Shown: one piece after another, positions 7,599 through 16,546 of the stretch
Layout: each line of letters starts with the position of its first letter
How positions within the stretch are numbered: the first letter of the stretch is position 1
Origin: Bacteroidia bacterium
GTDB lineage: Bacteria; Bacteroidota; Bacteroidia; JAIBAJ01
DNA length: 33,897 nt
Direction of reading: 5' to 3'
Assembly: GCA_019695265.1 (NCBI GenBank)
Contig: JAIBAJ010000026.1
Span: forward strand, 1 to 33,897
Notes under the pieces: generated by a model
What the model was told of the DNA's origin: nothing
The model's input: only the letters and a program-made list of their open reading frames with translations
Databases searched by the model: none
Translations under genes and position numbers: made by a program

Positions 7599-8855
7599 CT
7601 ATTCAATCGCTATTCGTTTCTGAAAGCTTCCCAGGTGGGAAGAGCCTTTTATAAAGTAAATTCCGGGCTGTAAAACATCCCATTTGATTTCGACAACTGA
7701 ACCTGGATTTGGAAAAGATTTTCTTAAAAAAACCTCCCCAAGTGGGTTGATTAGTTCTAAATCAAAGGTGGTATTTTGCAATTCAGAATTTAGTGACAAA
7801 AATACATTGGAATGGGTTGGATTAGGAAAAAGTTGAATCTTTTTAGAAAGATTGGCATCTGGAACCGCAACGAAGCAACCATCGGAAGAAACCAATTGGG
7901 TTCGGCTGGTATTAAGGGTTGCCCACATTCGTTCCTTTTGTCCCAAGGTGAAGAAATACATACAATTATCGTAAGTATAATCCATAAAATTCATAAACAT
8001 ATCACCGTAGGGTGTGTTACTACACATGGAGGTAACATGGTTTGGAAAAAGAGGACAATTGTAATTAGGGCCCGGACTTAAGGGGGTATCGTCAACGAGG
8101 TCGTCATTTAAACAAGATGCATTGGACCCTTCGGGACCCCATGGATGATAAAGGTTAAGGTAATGGCCTATTTCATGGGTTGTAGTACGGCCAAGATTAT
8201 AATTACCACCTAAACTTCCATTTTTTCCAAAATGTTTATAATCAATTACAACCCCATCCACATCAGGATTGGCGCCGGGTTGGTAGGTATATCCCAAAAT
8301 ACCTGAGGCCAGGTCACAAATCCAAATATTGAGATACTTGTTACTAGGCCAAGGATCTGCTCCACCATTTGCCGCACTTTTCATTTGGTCATCGTTGGAA
8401 AATTCTGTTTTATTTGTAAATGTTCGTGTAATACCAACAGTCCAATTTCCCTGAGGATCGGTACTGGCTAAACAAAAACTAATTTCTGAATTTGCGGCAA
8501 ATGACTGAAATGGTGTGGGGATGAGGGTTCTATCTGCATTAGAAAATGAATAGTCTTCATTTAATACTGCTAATTGAGAATAAATTAATTCATCGGAAAT
8601 ATTTTCCTCATCTGTATTATAGACTACATGAATTACAACCGGAATCTGAATTTGAGATTGTAATGATTTACTTTGGTTAGATGTTAGAAATTGTTGCAGG
8701 ATTTCTTCGTTTTCGATCAGTGTTGAAGCATAATCCGGATTTAAATTGGTGTACCTTTCAATAGATTCGGTGGTATAGCATCGTGGAGTTTGTGAAAACA
8801 ATACCGAAAAGGAAAGCAAGAACAGGCCCACTAAACTAAGTACCTCCTTTTTCAT
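7599..8855 (-). CDS. Secreted M43 (pappalysin-like) zinc metalloprotease, T9SS type A
   Basis: This 418-aa extracellular metalloprotease has a Sec signal peptide (about residues 1-21, ending VLFSQ). The catalytic zinc motif HEIGHYLNLYH (H227, E228, H231, H237) follows an IPVVIHVVY strand near 71-79 and precedes the Met-turn NFMDYTYDNC (about 289-298). Cysteines around the active site probably form disulfides. The last 80 residues are a T9SS type A sorting domain: LFPNPTHSNVF, NPLGE, LQPGIYFIKG and a short basic end. The start is ATG 8855, 4 nt after the stop of the large T9SS type B gene, and the gene ends 3 nt before mqnE, so the three are very likely one transcript. Substrate unknown. Confidence 0.93.
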   Translation of the reverse strand: MKKEVLSLVGLFLLSFSVLFSQTPRCYTTESIERYTNLNPDYASTLIENEEILQQFLTSNQSKSLQSQIQIPVVIHVVYNTDEENISDELIYSQLAVLNEDYSFSNADRTLIPTPFQSFAANSEISFCLASTDPQGNWTVGITRTFTNKTEFSNDDQMKSAANGGADPWPSNKYLNIWICDLASGILGYTYQPGANPDVDGVVIDYKHFGKNGSLGGNYNLGRTTTHEIGHYLNLYHPWGPEGSNASCLNDDLVDDTPLSPGPNYNCPLFPNHVTSMCSNTPYGDMFMNFMDYTYDNCMYFFTLGQKERMWATLNTSRTQLVSSDGCFVAVPDANLSKKIQLFPNPTHSNVFLSLNSELQNTTFDLELINPLGEVFLRKSFPNPGSVVEIKWDVLQPGIYFIKGSSHLGSFQKRIAIE

Positions 8856-8859
8856 AAGG

Positions 8860-11800
8860 CTAACGAATTAGGGTAATGGTACCTTTCTTTTCCAGGTGTT
8901 CACCTAGAGCAGTTAAGTACTTAAACGAATAAACATAAACACCTTGTTTGGCCATTTGTCCATAAATTTTGCCGTCCCAACCTTCGTTTAAGTCCTTGGT
9001 TCGAAAAACCTTTTGCCCCCACCGGTCCCAGATGGTGAATTCGTATTCATCTCTTGAAACGAATAAAGTAACAGGTTTAAAGACCCTATTTTCGGGCATC
9101 CAGGCATCGGTGGCAAATGCATTTGGAACAAAGAAATTAGCCCCTTGTTCGGCGCAATCAATGTTGGACTTACTATTAGCCAAAATTCCCAAAAAATTTC
9201 CCGGACCTTCGTATCCGACTACAAAATAACAGAAGGTGCCATTACCAATAGTGAAAGTATCTACACTATCAACATAAGTATAAAAAGAGTCGGCCGTTGA
9301 AGGAATAATTGCAATAATATCATAGGAAAACGAGTTCAACCCACCTATTTGTCTAAAAACTGCATATCGATCTACTTGACCATCCCAATTATAGTAGGCG
9401 TTCCAATTCAGCACATTGGTGCGATTAGGGTATCCGGTTGCGGTAAGGTGGATGGTAGTTCCGATATTGGTAGTATCGGTTGGAGTGAGACAAGTATCAA
9501 AAGTAATAATACGATAGGTATAGCTACTTAAATTAGTACTAGCTGATTCGTCGGTATATTCAACCAAATCTACACCGGTAGGAGAGATATCATCCAACTT
9601 GGAGTAATTTGTAACAGGGGTTTTTCTTTCAATTTCAAAGTGATCAATTATAGCGGTATGATCGATTCGTGCATTAATATATGCTTCGGTATTAGATTCA
9701 ACGGTAGCTGTAGTGATGTAGCCAAAATCAGGAGCTTTGGGTAAAGTTGCATCAAAGCATAGGGAATTTGAACTCGAGGTAATACGATTATTAACATCAT
9801 TTTTTACTGCAGTTATGTAATAGCAATAAACATGATTTTTAACTATAAAAGAATCAATATAATTTGGAAGATCCGAAGTTGTAACCAAGGTGTCATAAGG
9901 TTCATAAGGCCCATTATTATCCTTGCGATTGATGATATAATAATCAACACCGGTAGTCCAACTAACATATGGATTCCAAGCCAAGGAAATTTTACGGTCG
10001 CAGATATTGATTGACCCTGACATAAGCATGGTACAATGACTGAAACTCAAGGCACTAACATTACCGCAACTATCGAAGGCTGCCACCCTATAGCATTCAG
10101 AAATAGTATCCGCATTGGAAGTAGTATCGTTGAACCAATAAGTAGAATTATAACCATTCAAAGTTTCAACGGCAGTCCAAATTCCATTTCTAAAATAATA
10201 GGTAATATAACCTATTGCATCTGCCGAAGCACTGGGTTTCCATCCCATAACTGCATTTCCAGAAAGTAAATCAACACTTACTGAGTCTACTTCTGGTGTT
10301 TCAGGAAGAAAATTATCAGCGAATTGTTGACCATCCACACTGGAAATATTGATACAGCCTAATGCATCGGCAATTTCTACCCGATAGTTCACTACCTCAT
10401 TGCAGACGGTGACAGGATCATTAAAAGAATTGGTATTTGAAGTTCCAATCATATTCCAGGTACCCAAAGGTTGTTCTCTGAAAATGGAATAGGTTGGGCC
10501 TGTGGTTGGGAGCAATGGGTCAGATGGAGGATTCCAACTAAGACCAGCAAAGCCGTTGGCGCCATTTGAAACTGTTAAAAGCATTGAGGCCAAAGTATCG
10601 AGCGGAGGTGCATCGAGGCAACCAAAAATAGAGGTAACAAAATAAAAATTTTGATCTACTGCCGCATTTGCAGTAGTATGGATATAGGAAAGCGTATTAA
10701 TATTATTTATAGTAGCTATTTGAGTATAGGGGCCATTCAGAGAATTGGAATGGTAAATGGCATATGAATTCCAAGATCCGGTTGTATTAACACCTTGTTC
10801 CCAATTCAACGTAGTAGAACCATCTGAATTAACAGAAACACATCGAAGTTCAGGAGAATGTTCACTGGAATTAGGAGCCAGGATGGTAACACTAATATTA
10901 TAGGTAGTGAAAGCAGGAATTGGGCAAAAATTATCTTGAAAAACAATACTAAAGGTATAAGTATTATCAGCCGTATTGCAACCCAATTGACCGGTCAAAT
11001 GGTTGCAATCGGTTTGCCAGTTAAATGTGGTACCGGTACTTCCAATGGTAGTTGCGGGTGGCGCTGGTGTTAGGGTTGCACAAGGCGGATTCGAACATCC
11101 TCCAGCCGAATTGGTATAGCCGGCACCAAATTGGCTTCCAACAGCAGAAAAGGATACACTTTGAGGATTACCATTGCTTAGGACTCCATTATCACTTGCT
11201 ACTAAAGGTATATTCACCAAATCTCCTGCATTGACACTGACAGCATAATTGGTTGTTGTTCCACCGGAAGGATCTGTTGTTATTAACGGGTTAAGGTTAT
11301 TGGCACACCCACCTGTAACGAAAACATTTAATTCTCGGTAAACTTCAGAAATCAACACTCCGCATCGATAGGATTTTGTAATAGTTGCCAATAAGTAAAC
11401 CCCTTGAGTATACGATTTAAAAGTGATATCACCTGTTTGAGGATTTATTGTTGCCGGAATATTTAAAGGGTCGAAAGATTGATCCGGGGTTGGATTTTGA
11501 TAGGAATATCCAGGATTGTAAGCAACCAATTGAGGATCAACCGGAGGATTGTAAACAGTCAACTCACTAACTTGCATGGGAGGAGCAAATTCATAGGTTA
11601 AAACATCACCATCTGAATCATAAGCAATACCATTGAAATTGACAGTTGAACCAGCACAAACAATTCTTGGAGGAGGAGCCAGAAATGCCGGAGAAGAATC
11701 GTAGCAGGGATTAGTGGTCGTATTATTCAAATTAAACATGGTCGTATGTAAAACCATGGTATTGTTCATGATAGCTTGAATATTAGTAATATTGCCACTT

Positions 11801-12234
11801 CTAAAATTCTGAAGGGTAGCAAAGGTCCAACCATCAGGAGGAATAGTTCCTTCCAAAGTGACAGGAACCGATTGAAAAACATATTCCTTCATAGCACCAT
11901 TCAAAGGTGAGGCCGAACTACAAGATATAACAGGCCCGGAAGCATCGCAGTTTGGGGAAATGTCTTGCTCCGAAATCAGGTTCAAAGCTATTGAAACCCA
12001 ATCAACCCCATTTAAAGTTGGAGGATCGGAACTTAGAACAGTAATTGGAATAACTTGAATTGGAGAACTTGAAGTACAGTCATAATAAATCTTAACCGTA
12101 AATATAAATTGCCCACCACCAACACATTGGTAAGTTAATTCGCCGCCGAGAATATGATTTGCATAGGTTTTGTAGGTACCTACCAAAAGGAACAGCGCGA
12201 GAACAAGGGTTTTGATATATTTTTGAAATGGCAA
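8860..12234 (-). CDS. Large secreted protein with FN3-like repeats and gliding-motility-type (T9SS type B) C-terminus
   Basis: The 1124-aa product is a cell-surface or secreted adhesin-like protein. A signal peptide (about 1-25, ending YKTYA) leads to NHILGGELTYQC, a common start of such Bacteroidota proteins. Residues 26-450 form a Cys-rich beta domain with PKD-like features. About six fibronectin-III-like modules follow from roughly 455 to 1025 (TTLNWEQG, GLSWNPP, VMGWKPS, LAWNPY, VLNWNAY mark their B strands). The gliding-motility-associated CHU_C/T9SS type B sorting domain is at about 1034-1124 (FVPNAFATD, FTIWDRWGQKVF, WDGK, GVYVYSFKY). No ATG precedes the signal peptide, so TTG 12234 is the likely start. 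It heads an operon with the M43 protease and mqnE. Confidence 0.92.
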   Translation of the reverse strand: MPFQKYIKTLVLALFLLVGTYKTYANHILGGELTYQCVGGGQFIFTVKIYYDCTSSSPIQVIPITVLSSDPPTLNGVDWVSIALNLISEQDISPNCDASGPVISCSSASPLNGAMKEYVFQSVPVTLEGTIPPDGWTFATLQNFRSGNITNIQAIMNNTMVLHTTMFNLNNTTTNPCYDSSPAFLAPPPRIVCAGSTVNFNGIAYDSDGDVLTYEFAPPMQVSELTVYNPPVDPQLVAYNPGYSYQNPTPDQSFDPLNIPATINPQTGDITFKSYTQGVYLLATITKSYRCGVLISEVYRELNVFVTGGCANNLNPLITTDPSGGTTTNYAVSVNAGDLVNIPLVASDNGVLSNGNPQSVSFSAVGSQFGAGYTNSAGGCSNPPCATLTPAPPATTIGSTGTTFNWQTDCNHLTGQLGCNTADNTYTFSIVFQDNFCPIPAFTTYNISVTILAPNSSEHSPELRCVSVNSDGSTTLNWEQGVNTTGSWNSYAIYHSNSLNGPYTQIATINNINTLSYIHTTANAAVDQNFYFVTSIFGCLDAPPLDTLASMLLTVSNGANGFAGLSWNPPSDPLLPTTGPTYSIFREQPLGTWNMIGTSNTNSFNDPVTVCNEVVNYRVEIADALGCINISSVDGQQFADNFLPETPEVDSVSVDLLSGNAVMGWKPSASADAIGYITYYFRNGIWTAVETLNGYNSTYWFNDTTSNADTISECYRVAAFDSCGNVSALSFSHCTMLMSGSINICDRKISLAWNPYVSWTTGVDYYIINRKDNNGPYEPYDTLVTTSDLPNYIDSFIVKNHVYCYYITAVKNDVNNRITSSSNSLCFDATLPKAPDFGYITTATVESNTEAYINARIDHTAIIDHFEIERKTPVTNYSKLDDISPTGVDLVEYTDESASTNLSSYTYRIITFDTCLTPTDTTNIGTTIHLTATGYPNRTNVLNWNAYYNWDGQVDRYAVFRQIGGLNSFSYDIIAIIPSTADSFYTYVDSVDTFTIGNGTFCYFVVGYEGPGNFLGILANSKSNIDCAEQGANFFVPNAFATDAWMPENRVFKPVTLFVSRDEYEFTIWDRWGQKVFRTKDLNEGWDGKIYGQMAKQGVYVYSFKYLTALGEHLEKKGTITLIR

Positions 12235-12334: not shown

Positions 12335-12943
12335 CTACTTTACCATTCCCAAACCTTCCAAAGCAAGTTTATCACCCGGGCTGATTAACAATGCACGACT
12401 GAAAAGAGACTTGGCATCGGAATTTTTGTTCAACATCAGACTAACCCAAGCACTCATCATAACTGCGTCATAATCAAATGGATAAAGATTCAAGAACTTA
12501 TCCAAATACGTTTTTGATTTTTCAAATTGCCCTCTGTTGTAATAAATCAAACCAAGTCGGTAATTGGCAGTTGTTTGATTTGGGTCAGCCTTTAGAATTA
12601 GTTCATATTGTTTTACAACCTCGTCCCATTTTCCTAATACACTTAACGGATAAACAATTCCAAACTTAGGTTCTATTGCATTAGGCATTAAGTCGATGGC
12701 CTTTTGATAATAAGAAAGAGAGGAAGTTTGATTACTATCCAAATAACTCAACCACCCTAATCGAAGATTAAGTTCATAACTTTTTTCATTATAAACAGAT
12801 TTTAATGAAGTTATGGCCGACTTATAATTGTATTTACTTTCAAGCGTATAGCTTTGTTGGAAAGCATCTTGAATCTTCTTGTTGTCTTGGCCCATTGCAA
12901 GGCTAGAAATTGCCATTGCAGAAAGTAAAATGATTCGTTTCAT
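12335..12943 (-). CDS. Small periplasmic TPR protein
   Basis: This 202-aa protein has a clear signal peptide (MKRIILLSAMAISSLAMGQ, cleavage near residue 18-19) and is otherwise filled by about five TPR units, for example YYQKAIDLMPNAIEPKFG, YELILKADPNQTTANYRLGLIYY and LLISPGDKLALEGLG. The mature protein should be a soluble periplasmic scaffold. It starts 19 nt after the stop of the TPR/outer-membrane-barrel gene and is the third gene of the urea-channel/M23 operon, so it probably works with those envelope proteins. It has no lipobox or membrane anchor. Function beyond protein-protein contact is unknown. Confidence 0.85.
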   Translation of the reverse strand: MKRIILLSAMAISSLAMGQDNKKIQDAFQQSYTLESKYNYKSAITSLKSVYNEKSYELNLRLGWLSYLDSNQTSSLSYYQKAIDLMPNAIEPKFGIVYPLSVLGKWDEVVKQYELILKADPNQTTANYRLGLIYYNRGQFEKSKTYLDKFLNLYPFDYDAVMMSAWVSLMLNKNSDAKSLFSRALLISPGDKLALEGLGMVK

Positions 12944-12962
12944 CGGTTAAATTATTAAATAG

Positions 12963-14363
12963 TTAGAAGTAAATTTTTAATCCAGTATTAATTAGAAAAT
13001 GGGTGTAAGTGTATGGAAATCCCTTTTCAATAGGGACTTCAGTACTATTGGTTCTAATTTCTTTAAATGTAAGCCCCTCCCTACCAAGCAATCCAAATCG
13101 AAGTGGAATTTCAAATTTATTTTTAAGAATAAAGCTAAAATGGATACCTGCCTTCCAATTTATTTGGTCCGGATTATTATTTAGGATCCAACCAGATGCG
13201 TCAGATGTACCATACATTCTACCAAAAAGACAATTGCCTTCAAGCCATAGCCATTTAGAAAACCTTGCGCCAAGCTTAAAACCACCAAAAAAATTTGTAC
13301 CACTTTGGCTAATAGTACTTGCTTGACCAGAAATATAAAATCGGTTATTACTAATTGGAAATAACGTTAATATAGTATTGGATTGATGATACAAACTATC
13401 AGAGACACGATTAAAAGAATAGGAACTTTCCCAGGAAAAATTGCTCCATCTCTTCCTTACCAATCCAACCAAAGACAAATCCATTCCACTAATATTCAAC
13501 TCCTTAATTCGAAAAGATAAAGTACTTCCCAATATTTTATCAATTTGAACGGTGTTTCCTGAATAAAAAATAATATTTCCGGAAGCAAATACAGACCACC
13601 CTTTACCGAATTGATAATTTAATCCAGCATAGATACTTTGCTGGTTGGTTTTTAACTTCCAGGATTGATTGGATACTTGATTATTTCCAGAGCCGGGAGT
13701 GCCTAAATGTCTTGAAAAAATAATGGTATTTCCAACATTCATAAACTGATAGCCCAAAGTAAAATTCATTCTACTTCCAATCCACATATTTGCAGAACCA
13801 CTGGCAAAAAACAAATTTCCTTGCTGCTTTTGCTTCAAATATACCTGTGTTGGATCGGTAAGACTTGCTTCTGGGGCTTTTCCAAATAACCCGCCACCTT
13901 CTAGTCCAATCCAGTTTAATCGAGAACCCTTAAAACCAGAATAGAATTTTTGCCAGGGTGTCAAATGAGAACTTAATACTCTGGCTTCACTTTCACGGCC
14001 TGCATTCATAAGCGACACATATCGATACCAATAAGTCAAGGTATCTACAGGAAAAAACGCATTGGCCTTTTTATATTCTCTTTCGGAAGAATTATATTTT
14101 TCTTGGTTATCATAAGCAATTCCTTTTCTAAGCCTTAGATAATAAAAATCAATTCCTTTCTTTTCAGCCTCCTTAGCCAATTGAATAATTTTTTGCCAAT
14201 CTTTTTCCATAAATGCCTCATAGCTTTTCATATCGTATTCAGCATCATAATAGCCTTGGGACCAAGATTGATATGGGGATAAAACCAATAAAATTAAAAA
14301 CAGGGATACCAGGGCACAAGTTTTGGCCATTAATAAAGGTATTATTAATTCTGGTTTCCTCAT
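12963..14363 (-). CDS. TPR-containing outer-membrane beta-barrel protein
   Basis: The 466-aa product combines a signal peptide (ending SYQSWSQ-like at about residue 36; ATG at residue 12 is an alternative start), a short TPR/helical segment at about 40-125 (ALAKEAEKKG-like and SSEREYKKANAFFP), and a barrel of about 14 amphipathic strands from about 150 to the C-terminus. The last residues, NTGLKIYF, end in Phe, as expected for Bam-inserted outer-membrane proteins. Its ATG shares one base with the TAA of the urea-transporter/M23 gene (TAATG), which implies translational coupling and a joint role. The layout recalls YaiO-like TPR-barrels, but I cannot confirm that family. It may form the outer-membrane partner of the channel/peptidase. 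Confidence 0.82.
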   Translation of the reverse strand: MRKPELIIPLLMAKTCALVSLFLILLVLSPYQSWSQGYYDAEYDMKSYEAFMEKDWQKIIQLAKEAEKKGIDFYYLRLRKGIAYDNQEKYNSSEREYKKANAFFPVDTLTYWYRYVSLMNAGRESEARVLSSHLTPWQKFYSGFKGSRLNWIGLEGGGLFGKAPEASLTDPTQVYLKQKQQGNLFFASGSANMWIGSRMNFTLGYQFMNVGNTIIFSRHLGTPGSGNNQVSNQSWKLKTNQQSIYAGLNYQFGKGWSVFASGNIIFYSGNTVQIDKILGSTLSFRIKELNISGMDLSLVGLVRKRWSNFSWESSYSFNRVSDSLYHQSNTILTLFPISNNRFYISGQASTISQSGTNFFGGFKLGARFSKWLWLEGNCLFGRMYGTSDASGWILNNNPDQINWKAGIHFSFILKNKFEIPLRFGLLGREGLTFKEIRTNSTEVPIEKGFPYTYTHFLINTGLKIYF

Positions 14364-16495
14364 TATTCAATTCGTTTCCATTGCTTTAACTTTCCTTGCT
14401 TCATTGCACCCATAACGCTTAATCCACCATCTTCAATTTCAATTTCTAAATGACGTTTACTCAAACAATAACCCAACAAACTAATTTCCATCTCTGATTG
14501 CAAAACTATTCTTTTTGACTCGAGATGATGAATAATAGTAGGGTATTTCATCAAATACTTTGCTTTTGCAATTGTTAAAAAGGGTGCAGTAAAATCTTGG
14601 ATTATTCTAGCAACCGGATTTGAAACATATTGGAGTGAATACCTGTCTTCAAGGTTTAAACCAGGGTAACTTCCAAGTAGTACTTTATAGGCTGCAAGGT
14701 AAAAAACATATAAAAGAGAATCTTTACTTCCTTTAAAATCTGTAAAATAAAACATGGTTCCATCATTTACAAAATAGGCATACCCCTTTGTGGTGTGACA
14801 AAAAATATAGCTTCTATTCCATGCATCAGTAAATACTTCCCACTCGGTGATTTTACCCGAGGAATTTTGAAATTTCAATTTCATTCCGGGTAAAAAAGTA
14901 AAGGCTGCAACCAAACCACTATTGAGCTCAACATTGGAAACCAATTCCCCTTCCTGTGGAACAGTAAATTCATTTAAGTAGTAGCGCCCTCCCCTCTTAC
15001 TCATAAAATAGGCCAGGGGATAAACCAGTGTTTTGCTTCCTATTTTACCTGAATTTTGAAATTGAAAATGGAGATGAGGCTCCGGAGAACGGCCAGAACT
15101 ACCGCAATTTCCTACAATCTCTCCTTCCTTTACATATTGTCCAACCACCTGTTTAATACTATCTTGTTTTAGGTGACTTAACTGACTATACAACCCATTT
15201 CCATGATTTATTACAACTGAGTTCCCCCAATTTTGTCTAATATCCATACCCGCTATCTTGTTTTCCTCCACATGGTTTACCACTTCTTCAATCCAACCGG
15301 CAGCAGGTGCTAATAAAGGTTTATTAAAACAATAAAAGTCATTCAAATCTGATCCCGATTTTTGGTAAGATTTCATTTCTGCATCCAAGACAACAAAGTC
15401 CAAAGCCGAACTCCAATCTCCTTTATGAGTAAAACTGCCATGGTAACCTTGACTAACCATCCATTCTCCAAGGAAAGGTAATTTAAAATGAACTTTATCC
15501 AGATTTTTTAGGCGACGGGTAAAAAAAGAGGTACGGTAAACTGCTGCTTCAGGAGAATAGTGTTGGATTTCAATTGGAATTATCCAATTTGTCCTACCCC
15601 AATTTCTTAATATAGTAAGAAACAAATGACTAGAAGCAGTAAATGCAAGGGTATAAACCGGCAGAATAAATAAGGATCCTATGCCACCTAAAAAAACATG
15701 TACCAATAAGGTAAACGGGATTAATACTATAGCACCAATTAAGGTTCCTATGGAAGGCACAGCATAAAAACAACCTACAGATAGAGAAAGGAAAATAAAA
15801 TTGCTTCCGCACTGATAATTAAGCCAAGCTTCCGGTCCAAGTGCAGATTGAAACATAATGTAAGCTGCCATTAAAACAACAGAGGTAAATACAAAGGCAA
15901 TTCTTGACCAAAATAACATACCCAAGACAATAATTAAACCTGCCAAAGGGCTTTTGTTAAAAAACACTCCACTGAACGTATTTAGAATAAGTTTCACTGT
16001 ATCGGGCAATGCCGAATGAAGTTGTTCATCGAACGACTCATAATGAATTAATTGATTATTAAAAACAAACAAACTATGATTTACAGGTTCAAGCAAATGC
16101 GATTGCCTGATAAATACGGTCATAATCCAAACAGTTAATACAAATGGAATACTTAAAGAAGGCAGATTCCATTTCTCCAAAATTGAATTACATAACATGG
16201 TAGAAAACAAACTAGCAGCAGAACCTAGCAACAAAATCAAAAGAAAAAAAACACCATTATTCCAATCAAAGGCCAGAGCCATTCCGGTTAAAAGAGCATT
16301 ATATCCATACAATCCTTCGGAGAAAGATTGTAGCCGAAACCTAAACAAAAAGGCAATAAAATTTGCACTTAGTACGGAAACCAAACCAGCCAATCCAAGC
16401 CGAAAGTTAAAGAATGAGGCAAACAATAATGCCAATCCGAAGTATTTATTCAGGGAAAAGAACAACTGAGAATAACTGTTTAATACAGCATCCAT
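14363..16495 (-). CDS. Urea-transporter-like channel fused to an M23 (LytM) peptidase
   Basis: From ATG 16495 the protein has 710 aa. Residues about 8-300 form a multi-pass membrane domain with the internal two-fold repeat of urea transporters: GLYGYNALLTGMA at 61-73, a first signature LPSLSIPF (111-118) and a second LPVYTLAF (278-285). Residues about 345-500 are an M23/LytM metallopeptidase with His357 and Asp366 (THKGDWSSALDF), His441 (SQLSHL) and PHLHF (His474, His476), so the zinc and catalytic residues are present. About 200 further residues of unknown fold follow. A TTG at 16531 could add 12 residues. The gene is coupled to the TPR-barrel gene downstream. No urease is nearby. If the peptidase acts on peptidoglycan its domain must face the periplasm. 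Confidence 0.88.
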   Translation of the reverse strand: MDAVLNSYSQLFFSLNKYFGLALLFASFFNFRLGLAGLVSVLSANFIAFLFRFRLQSFSEGLYGYNALLTGMALAFDWNNGVFFLLILLLGSAASLFSTMLCNSILEKWNLPSLSIPFVLTVWIMTVFIRQSHLLEPVNHSLFVFNNQLIHYESFDEQLHSALPDTVKLILNTFSGVFFNKSPLAGLIIVLGMLFWSRIAFVFTSVVLMAAYIMFQSALGPEAWLNYQCGSNFIFLSLSVGCFYAVPSIGTLIGAIVLIPFTLLVHVFLGGIGSLFILPVYTLAFTASSHLFLTILRNWGRTNWIIPIEIQHYSPEAAVYRTSFFTRRLKNLDKVHFKLPFLGEWMVSQGYHGSFTHKGDWSSALDFVVLDAEMKSYQKSGSDLNDFYCFNKPLLAPAAGWIEEVVNHVEENKIAGMDIRQNWGNSVVINHGNGLYSQLSHLKQDSIKQVVGQYVKEGEIVGNCGSSGRSPEPHLHFQFQNSGKIGSKTLVYPLAYFMSKRGGRYYLNEFTVPQEGELVSNVELNSGLVAAFTFLPGMKLKFQNSSGKITEWEVFTDAWNRSYIFCHTTKGYAYFVNDGTMFYFTDFKGSKDSLLYVFYLAAYKVLLGSYPGLNLEDRYSLQYVSNPVARIIQDFTAPFLTIAKAKYLMKYPTIIHHLESKRIVLQSEMEISLLGYCLSKRHLEIEIEDGGLSVMGAMKQGKLKQWKRIE

Positions 16496-16538
16496 CCATT
16501 GTTTAATTGTTGGTGAATTTCCTAGTTCCAAATCAAGG

Positions 16539-16546
16539 CAAAATTA
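16539..16546 (-). promoter_or_regulatory. Possible -7 box (TAATTTTG) for the urea-channel/M23 operon
   Basis: TAATTTTG on the - strand matches TAnnTTTG. A TTTG lies 22 bp upstream of it, a little further than usual. Transcription would begin near 16534, which leaves a normal leader for ATG 16495 but almost none for TTG 16531, and so favours the ATG. Confidence 0.4.

Follow-up and report, generated by a model that had tools for sequence, protein, structure and literature searches.

Proteins of the urea transporter (UT) family are built of two inverted halves with an even number of membrane crossings, which leaves both termini on the same side of the membrane, cytoplasmic in the known members. 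Characterised M23 peptidases are, to our knowledge, extracytoplasmic. Work by Iyer et al. from 2009 on amidoligases is also reportedly relevant to the kind of locus considered here. Decarboxylases of the FigC clade act on amino acids that are attached to citrate, to microcin or to an 87-aa carrier (PMC7857480).

The window analyzed here, a stretch of 33,897 nucleotides from a Bacteroidia bacterium, carries on its minus strand three genes (ORF calls) in which a UT fold is fused to an M23 peptidase and followed by two envelope proteins. They raise the question of whether an M23 peptidase linked to a channel can function in the cytoplasm. Neither the UT-M23 fusion nor the six-gene operon to which it belongs is described in any open paper that we found. 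The features are the following.

14363..16531, minus strand: UT-M23 fusion gene, 722 aa, TTG start (ORF, Pfam, AlphaFold2)
15611..16495, minus strand: UT-fold membrane domain, residues 13-307 (Pfam UT, Foldseek, residue census)
15017..15484, minus strand: M23/LytM metallopeptidase domain, residues about 350-505 (Pfam, invariant residues, match to DipM LytM 7qrl)
14363..15016, minus strand: beta-rich C-terminal region of UT-M23, residues 506-722, without Pfam match
14361..14365, minus strand: TAATG stop/start overlap between UT-M23 and the outer-membrane barrel gene (sequence)
12963..14363, minus strand: TPR-necked outer-membrane barrel (OMP), 466 aa (ORF, Pfam, AlphaFold2, Foldseek)
12335..12943, minus strand: secreted TPR protein, 202 aa, with an N-terminal signal sequence (ORF, Pfam)

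A preliminary description of this DNA had reported three envelope genes packed by the TAATG overlap and a 19-nt gap, the latter between the OMP and TPR genes, and sequence and ORFs agree. The gene set within the span that it gave (12335-16546) also stands, while the upper end does not, since 16546 lies 15 nt upstream of the TTG start at 16531. Downstream on the same strand are a T9SS type B protein (8860-12234) and a T9SS type A M43 peptidase (7599-8855); this pair, 100 nt from the TPR gene, is probably a separate unit.

To place these genes, the neighbourhoods of carriers were read in a phylum survey of 395 genomes, together with a further 80 named loci taken from GTDB genomes, almost all of them of Bacteroidota and one of an Ignavibacteria bacterium, where the gene layout was the same. 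The fusion was found in 34 of the 395 genomes at some 30-39% identity, and overall it recurs at about 30-40% in many Bacteroidota families. The usual order, on one strand and with overlaps or short gaps, is a PqqD-like gene (80-84 aa), an ATP-grasp gene (about 350 aa), a PLP decarboxylase (about 450 aa), UT-M23, OMP and TPR. Of 112 homologous loci with flanking sequence, 94 have a FigC/LysA-type PLP decarboxylase upstream of the fusion and on its strand (within 50 nt in 70), the ATP-grasp gene is upstream in 85/101 loci, and downstream of the fusion there is a TPR gene in 91 of 93 loci and an OMP gene in 89. The gene order, whose conservation the preliminary description had proposed to check, is thus kept far beyond close relatives, and its view that these three envelope proteins, one of the inner membrane, one a barrel of the outer membrane and one an exported TPR protein, are co-transcribed is supported by the conserved operon. 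Recurrence at such identities across so many families also means that the arrangement is not due to chance. The three enzyme genes that normally start the operon are missing from the window.

As a whole, the six-gene system is present in about 9% of the sampled Bacteroidota genomes, with perfect co-occurrence of ligase and channel, and probably produces a small molecule or modification not described so far. A search for anti-phage defence gave no PADLOC match for seven proteins. In about ten genomes (for example at L155, 466-2305) the PqqD-like gene is directly preceded by genes for a histidine kinase of LytS type and a LytTR response regulator, which suggests that the operon is under signal control there. 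Two of the loci (L060 and L065, at both ends of contig G124:C1) are the same operon, probably seen twice through a circular assembly overlap; of its two UT-M23 copies, the one where the contig begins is interrupted.

The coupling of the membrane genes to the enzymes is well supported. When the 395 genomes were searched with the ATP-grasp profile at a cut-off of E <= 1e-70, ATP-grasp and UT-M23 occurred in an identical set of genomes (34/34). The hypergeometric probability of such a coincidence is about 1e-49, a naive figure whose significance is inflated by shared ancestry. The distribution is patchy within families, and pairwise identities correlate (r 0.77-0.86), which counts toward functional coupling. 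UT-M23 is almost certainly coupled in function to the ligase and decarboxylase. In the window organism itself only the adjacency is lost and the enzymes are kept elsewhere: contig C188 carries PqqD and ATP-grasp, contig C169 carries the decarboxylase, and the ATP-grasp and decarboxylase genes both run into contig ends. These enzymes are 70-80% identical to those of relatives, and its UT-M23 about 40%. In a setting absent from the other loci, the genes after the decarboxylase on C169 (L069, G000:C169, 555-3865) encode a 285-aa protein that matches no family, although by eye it resembles HemE, and an 824-aa NRPS-like protein for amino-acid adenylation.

One sub-clade has replaced the enzymes. 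In 11 loci a small glyoxalase-like gene and an OKR-fold (Orn/Lys/Arg) decarboxylase are divergent from UT-M23, and in 8 of them a PRK06524-type ATP-grasp lies directly beyond. The usual ATP-grasp has no match in any of the 11 genomes, which are drafts of unreported completeness, and no PqqD gene is found beside UT-M23 in this sub-clade. By this swap, two unrelated ligase and decarboxylase pairs partner the same membrane genes. A known parallel is rhizoferrin, for which there are two routes, one starting from free putrescine and one in which citryl-ornithine is decarboxylated (PMC7857480). Within the 395-genome survey the PRK06524-type ATP-grasp appears in six genomes, none of them a UT-M23 carrier. 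In five loci from genomes without the fusion (L181-L185), the PRK06524-type ATP-grasp belongs to a conserved cassette with genes for aminotransferase III, CN-hydrolase, glyoxalase, OKR decarboxylase, AAT-family acyltransferase and aldehyde dehydrogenase, the sort of set that handling a ligated amine would call for.

The claim that the fusion contains a complete LytM-type peptidase with its catalytic residues was borne out. Pfam M23 matches residues 403-495 (57 bits), and H369, D378, H453, H486 and H488, which correspond to the M23 zinc ligands and catalytic His, do not vary among 32 homologues, with the first His-Asp pair spaced by 9 residues versus the usual 4. In the AlphaFold2 model the domain matches LytM and DipM (7qrl) structurally (Foldseek). 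A shorter UT-M23 homologue (L063, 1810-3408, 532 aa) is without the beta-rich C-terminal region, which by this comparison may be dispensable.

As for topology, 111 of 112 homologues concentrate Lys and Arg in the loops that the usual UT orientation places on the cytoplasmic side, net charge agrees with that orientation in all 112, and standalone UTs have the same charge pattern as fused ones, so that a flipped UT topology can be discarded. No additional membrane helix follows the UT domain in the model, where the sole helix (residues 327-345) is polar and rich in Arg and Lys. The even number of UT crossings, the ordinary charge pattern and the lack of an extra helix together predict a cytoplasmic M23 domain, and on these charge statistics we consider this location likely, although M23 enzymes are normally exported and signal-like N-termini are present on three of the nearest standalone M23 relatives, both of which count against it. 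A locus with UT and M23 in separate ORFs (L059) was considered as a natural fission and rejected; the break (9009-9020) coincides with seven consecutive T, and the part that encodes M23 is without signal peptide, pointing to a frameshift or sequencing error, so the split is uninformative on topology.

The channel part is a whole UT fold with two inverted repeats. Pfam UT is complete (model positions 1-290/292, residues 13-307, 136 bits), the AlphaFold2 model is confident (pLDDT 88.9), and Foldseek aligns the domain to dvUT 3k3f with an E value of 4.7e-14 and TMt 0.84 (0.84-0.87 to dvUT). The urea site is altered. At the positions that we take, from dvUT, to be those coordinating urea, the window protein retains Q22 and has Gly188 in place of the second Glu/Gln. 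The first-repeat Gln is kept in just 69 of 112 UT-M23 homologues, and the second-repeat position, never Gln or Glu in the 112 fusions, holds A, S, G, L or some other residue that is not acidic, so that the polar Gln/Glu pair of a functional urea transporter is missing from them; four standalone UTs used as a control keep Gln/Glu at the second site. A genome-wide search found no urease alpha in the window organism, and urease is encoded by 1 of the 34 carriers versus 12 of the 395 genomes overall. In the standalone-UT control, 3/4 genomes encode urease, about 6 kb off in two. On the lost residues and the rarity of urease, urea assimilation was rejected; the preliminary description had already held simple urea assimilation to be unsupported by the context, given the absence of a urease gene, and the case now extends to the whole genome, to the carriers and to the site itself. 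By its residues, the fused channel is not an ordinary urea channel, and a "urea transporter" annotation in Bacteroidota need not imply urea.

The partner OMP has a hydrophobic N-terminal signal, TPR helices at 38-142 and 14 strands at 149-465, and its AlphaFold2 model (pLDDT 89.6) shows the TPR neck and the 14 strands. Foldseek matches in the PDB are outer-membrane barrels, the best being FadL at low TM, with no close PDB type. One lineage group has the TPR gene ahead of the OMP gene (UT-M23, TPR, OMP), and its barrel looks different. Hydrophobic N-terminal signals are mostly present in TPR and OMP and mostly absent from the three enzymes. A PgaA model scored only 23 bits, against the small TPR protein, and no glycosyltransferase or synthase of the kind that accompanies BcsC/PgaA-type exporters was found among the recurrent operon neighbours.

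As for the enzymes, the small protein belongs to the PqqD family (PF05402, 42.9 bits, in L036 and most homologues), as in the PqqD/RRE proteins of RiPP clusters, and is not an ACP with a phosphopantetheine serine; a LysW-like carrier role was rejected, its C-terminus not being conserved. No conserved precursor small ORF was found within 1.2 kb of the operon ends or in the gaps, the search yielding only overlooked PqqD genes and chance pairs. The ATP-grasp protein matches carbamoyl-phosphate-synthase-like families and not a graspetide model. The decarboxylase is nearest in the PDB to the N-citrylornithine decarboxylase 7kh2 (189 bits), ahead of DAPDC (154 bits) and BtrK (89 bits), in a ranking by bit score. 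All 91 sequences examined have Cys-Met, as 7kh2 does, at the motif of LysA/DAPDC, where Cys-Glu is usual; on this replacement DAP decarboxylation was rejected.

What was computed, then, is an operon, a co-occurrence, a set of intact M23 ligands, an altered UT site and a charge pattern. The reading that we tentatively favour is that UT-M23, OMP and TPR are the membrane and export half of an operon that makes and exports an amide-linked amine. The ATP-grasp ligase would amide-link an amino acid to an acceptor, which might be a peptide bound by the PqqD-like protein, and the FigC/BtrK-like PLP decarboxylase would strip the alpha-carboxyl of the attached amino acid to give an amide-linked amine. 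On the cytoplasmic side of the inner membrane, to which it is tethered, the M23 domain would cut the conjugate, releasing or trimming the product; the repurposed UT channel would let this small molecule through into the periplasm, from where the TPR protein and TPR-OMP would carry it across the outer membrane. We infer the substrate, the order of steps, the direction of transport and the cytoplasmic placement of M23, and the full release-and-export mechanism is possible but less secure than the general reading. The UT domain could import instead of export, or could be a mere anchor. Two negative results weigh against this scheme: the search for a short precursor gene came up empty, and the replacement sub-clade has no PqqD gene next to UT-M23. 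That the UT fold is a product-release gate, its pore fed by the fused cytoplasmic M23 as it cuts a conjugate supplied by either ligase/decarboxylase pair, is an unlikely refinement. If true, it would mean that a family of wall hydrolases is put to use in the cytoplasm and that a peptidase is coupled to a channel.

Other readings fare worse. Diderm Firmicutes have cadaverine-bearing peptidoglycan, and the operon might make a diamine conjugate of a peptidoglycan peptide, with UT-M23, OMP and TPR installing it or tailoring the wall. M23 enzymes typically act on peptidoglycan, the TPR and OMP partners are exported, and a decarboxylase and an amide ligase are present; however, the M23 domain is predicted to be cytoplasmic, no wall-anchoring gene is among the recurrent neighbours and the role of UT is left unexplained, which makes this unlikely. 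Slightly less probable is nitrogen or amine catabolism, in which the operon would import and degrade an amide or peptide while UT takes up a small amide or lets urea or products resembling ammonia through. The OKR-decarboxylase/ATP-grasp cassette found elsewhere does resemble amine use by its aminotransferase, CN-hydrolase, acyltransferase-like and aldehyde dehydrogenase genes, but such genes are not recurrent beside UT-M23, urease is in only 1/34 carriers and the urea residues are lost.

The model of the preliminary description is taken here as a periplasmic M23 domain coupled to a urea-type channel, with solute flow tied to peptidoglycan cutting or sensing, in a system without biosynthesis. 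The intact M23 ligands and the signal-like N-termini of the three nearest standalone relatives would suit it, but the description itself had held that a cytoplasmic M23 domain would refute it, and that is the side predicted (charge pattern in 111/112). With the urea site altered and the obligate ligase and decarboxylase partners pointing to biosynthesis, the link between flow and wall cutting is unsupported and the model improbable. Least probable is a RiPP pathway in which PqqD-like and ATP-grasp proteins modify a ribosomal peptide encoded elsewhere and M23 removes its leader, as the PqqD match and the union of ATP-grasp and peptidase in one operon might hint, since no conserved small ORF lies in or near the operon (a distant gene is possible) and the ATP-grasp is carbamoyl-phosphate-synthase-like rather than of a graspetide model.

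Compared with known systems, the fusion shares with the UT family (SLC14/dvUT 3k3f, PF03253) the whole fold, the repeats, the first-slot aromatics and the charge pattern, and differs by the attached M23 domain, the second-half Glu/Gln lost in 112/112 and the lack of a urease link. With the M23/LytM peptidases DipM, Pgp3 and lysostaphin it has in common the fold and all zinc and catalytic histidines, while its His-x8-Asp spacing, its place at the predicted cytoplasmic end of a channel and its beta-rich C-terminus set it apart. The TPR-OMP exporters BcsC and PgaA also have TPR before an outer-membrane barrel and an inner-membrane partner, although here there is no glycosyltransferase, the barrel has 14 strands and the TPR neck is short. 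The closest resemblance in the enzymes is to the N-citrylornithine decarboxylase FigC/FslC and to BtrI-BtrK of butirosin, with a small protein of ~80 aa, a decarboxylase putatively of the tethered-substrate clade and an ATP-dependent ligase in common. In the operon described here, however, the small protein is PqqD-like and a putative carrier at most, and in place of citrate ligase or aminoglycoside genes there are dedicated membrane and envelope genes.
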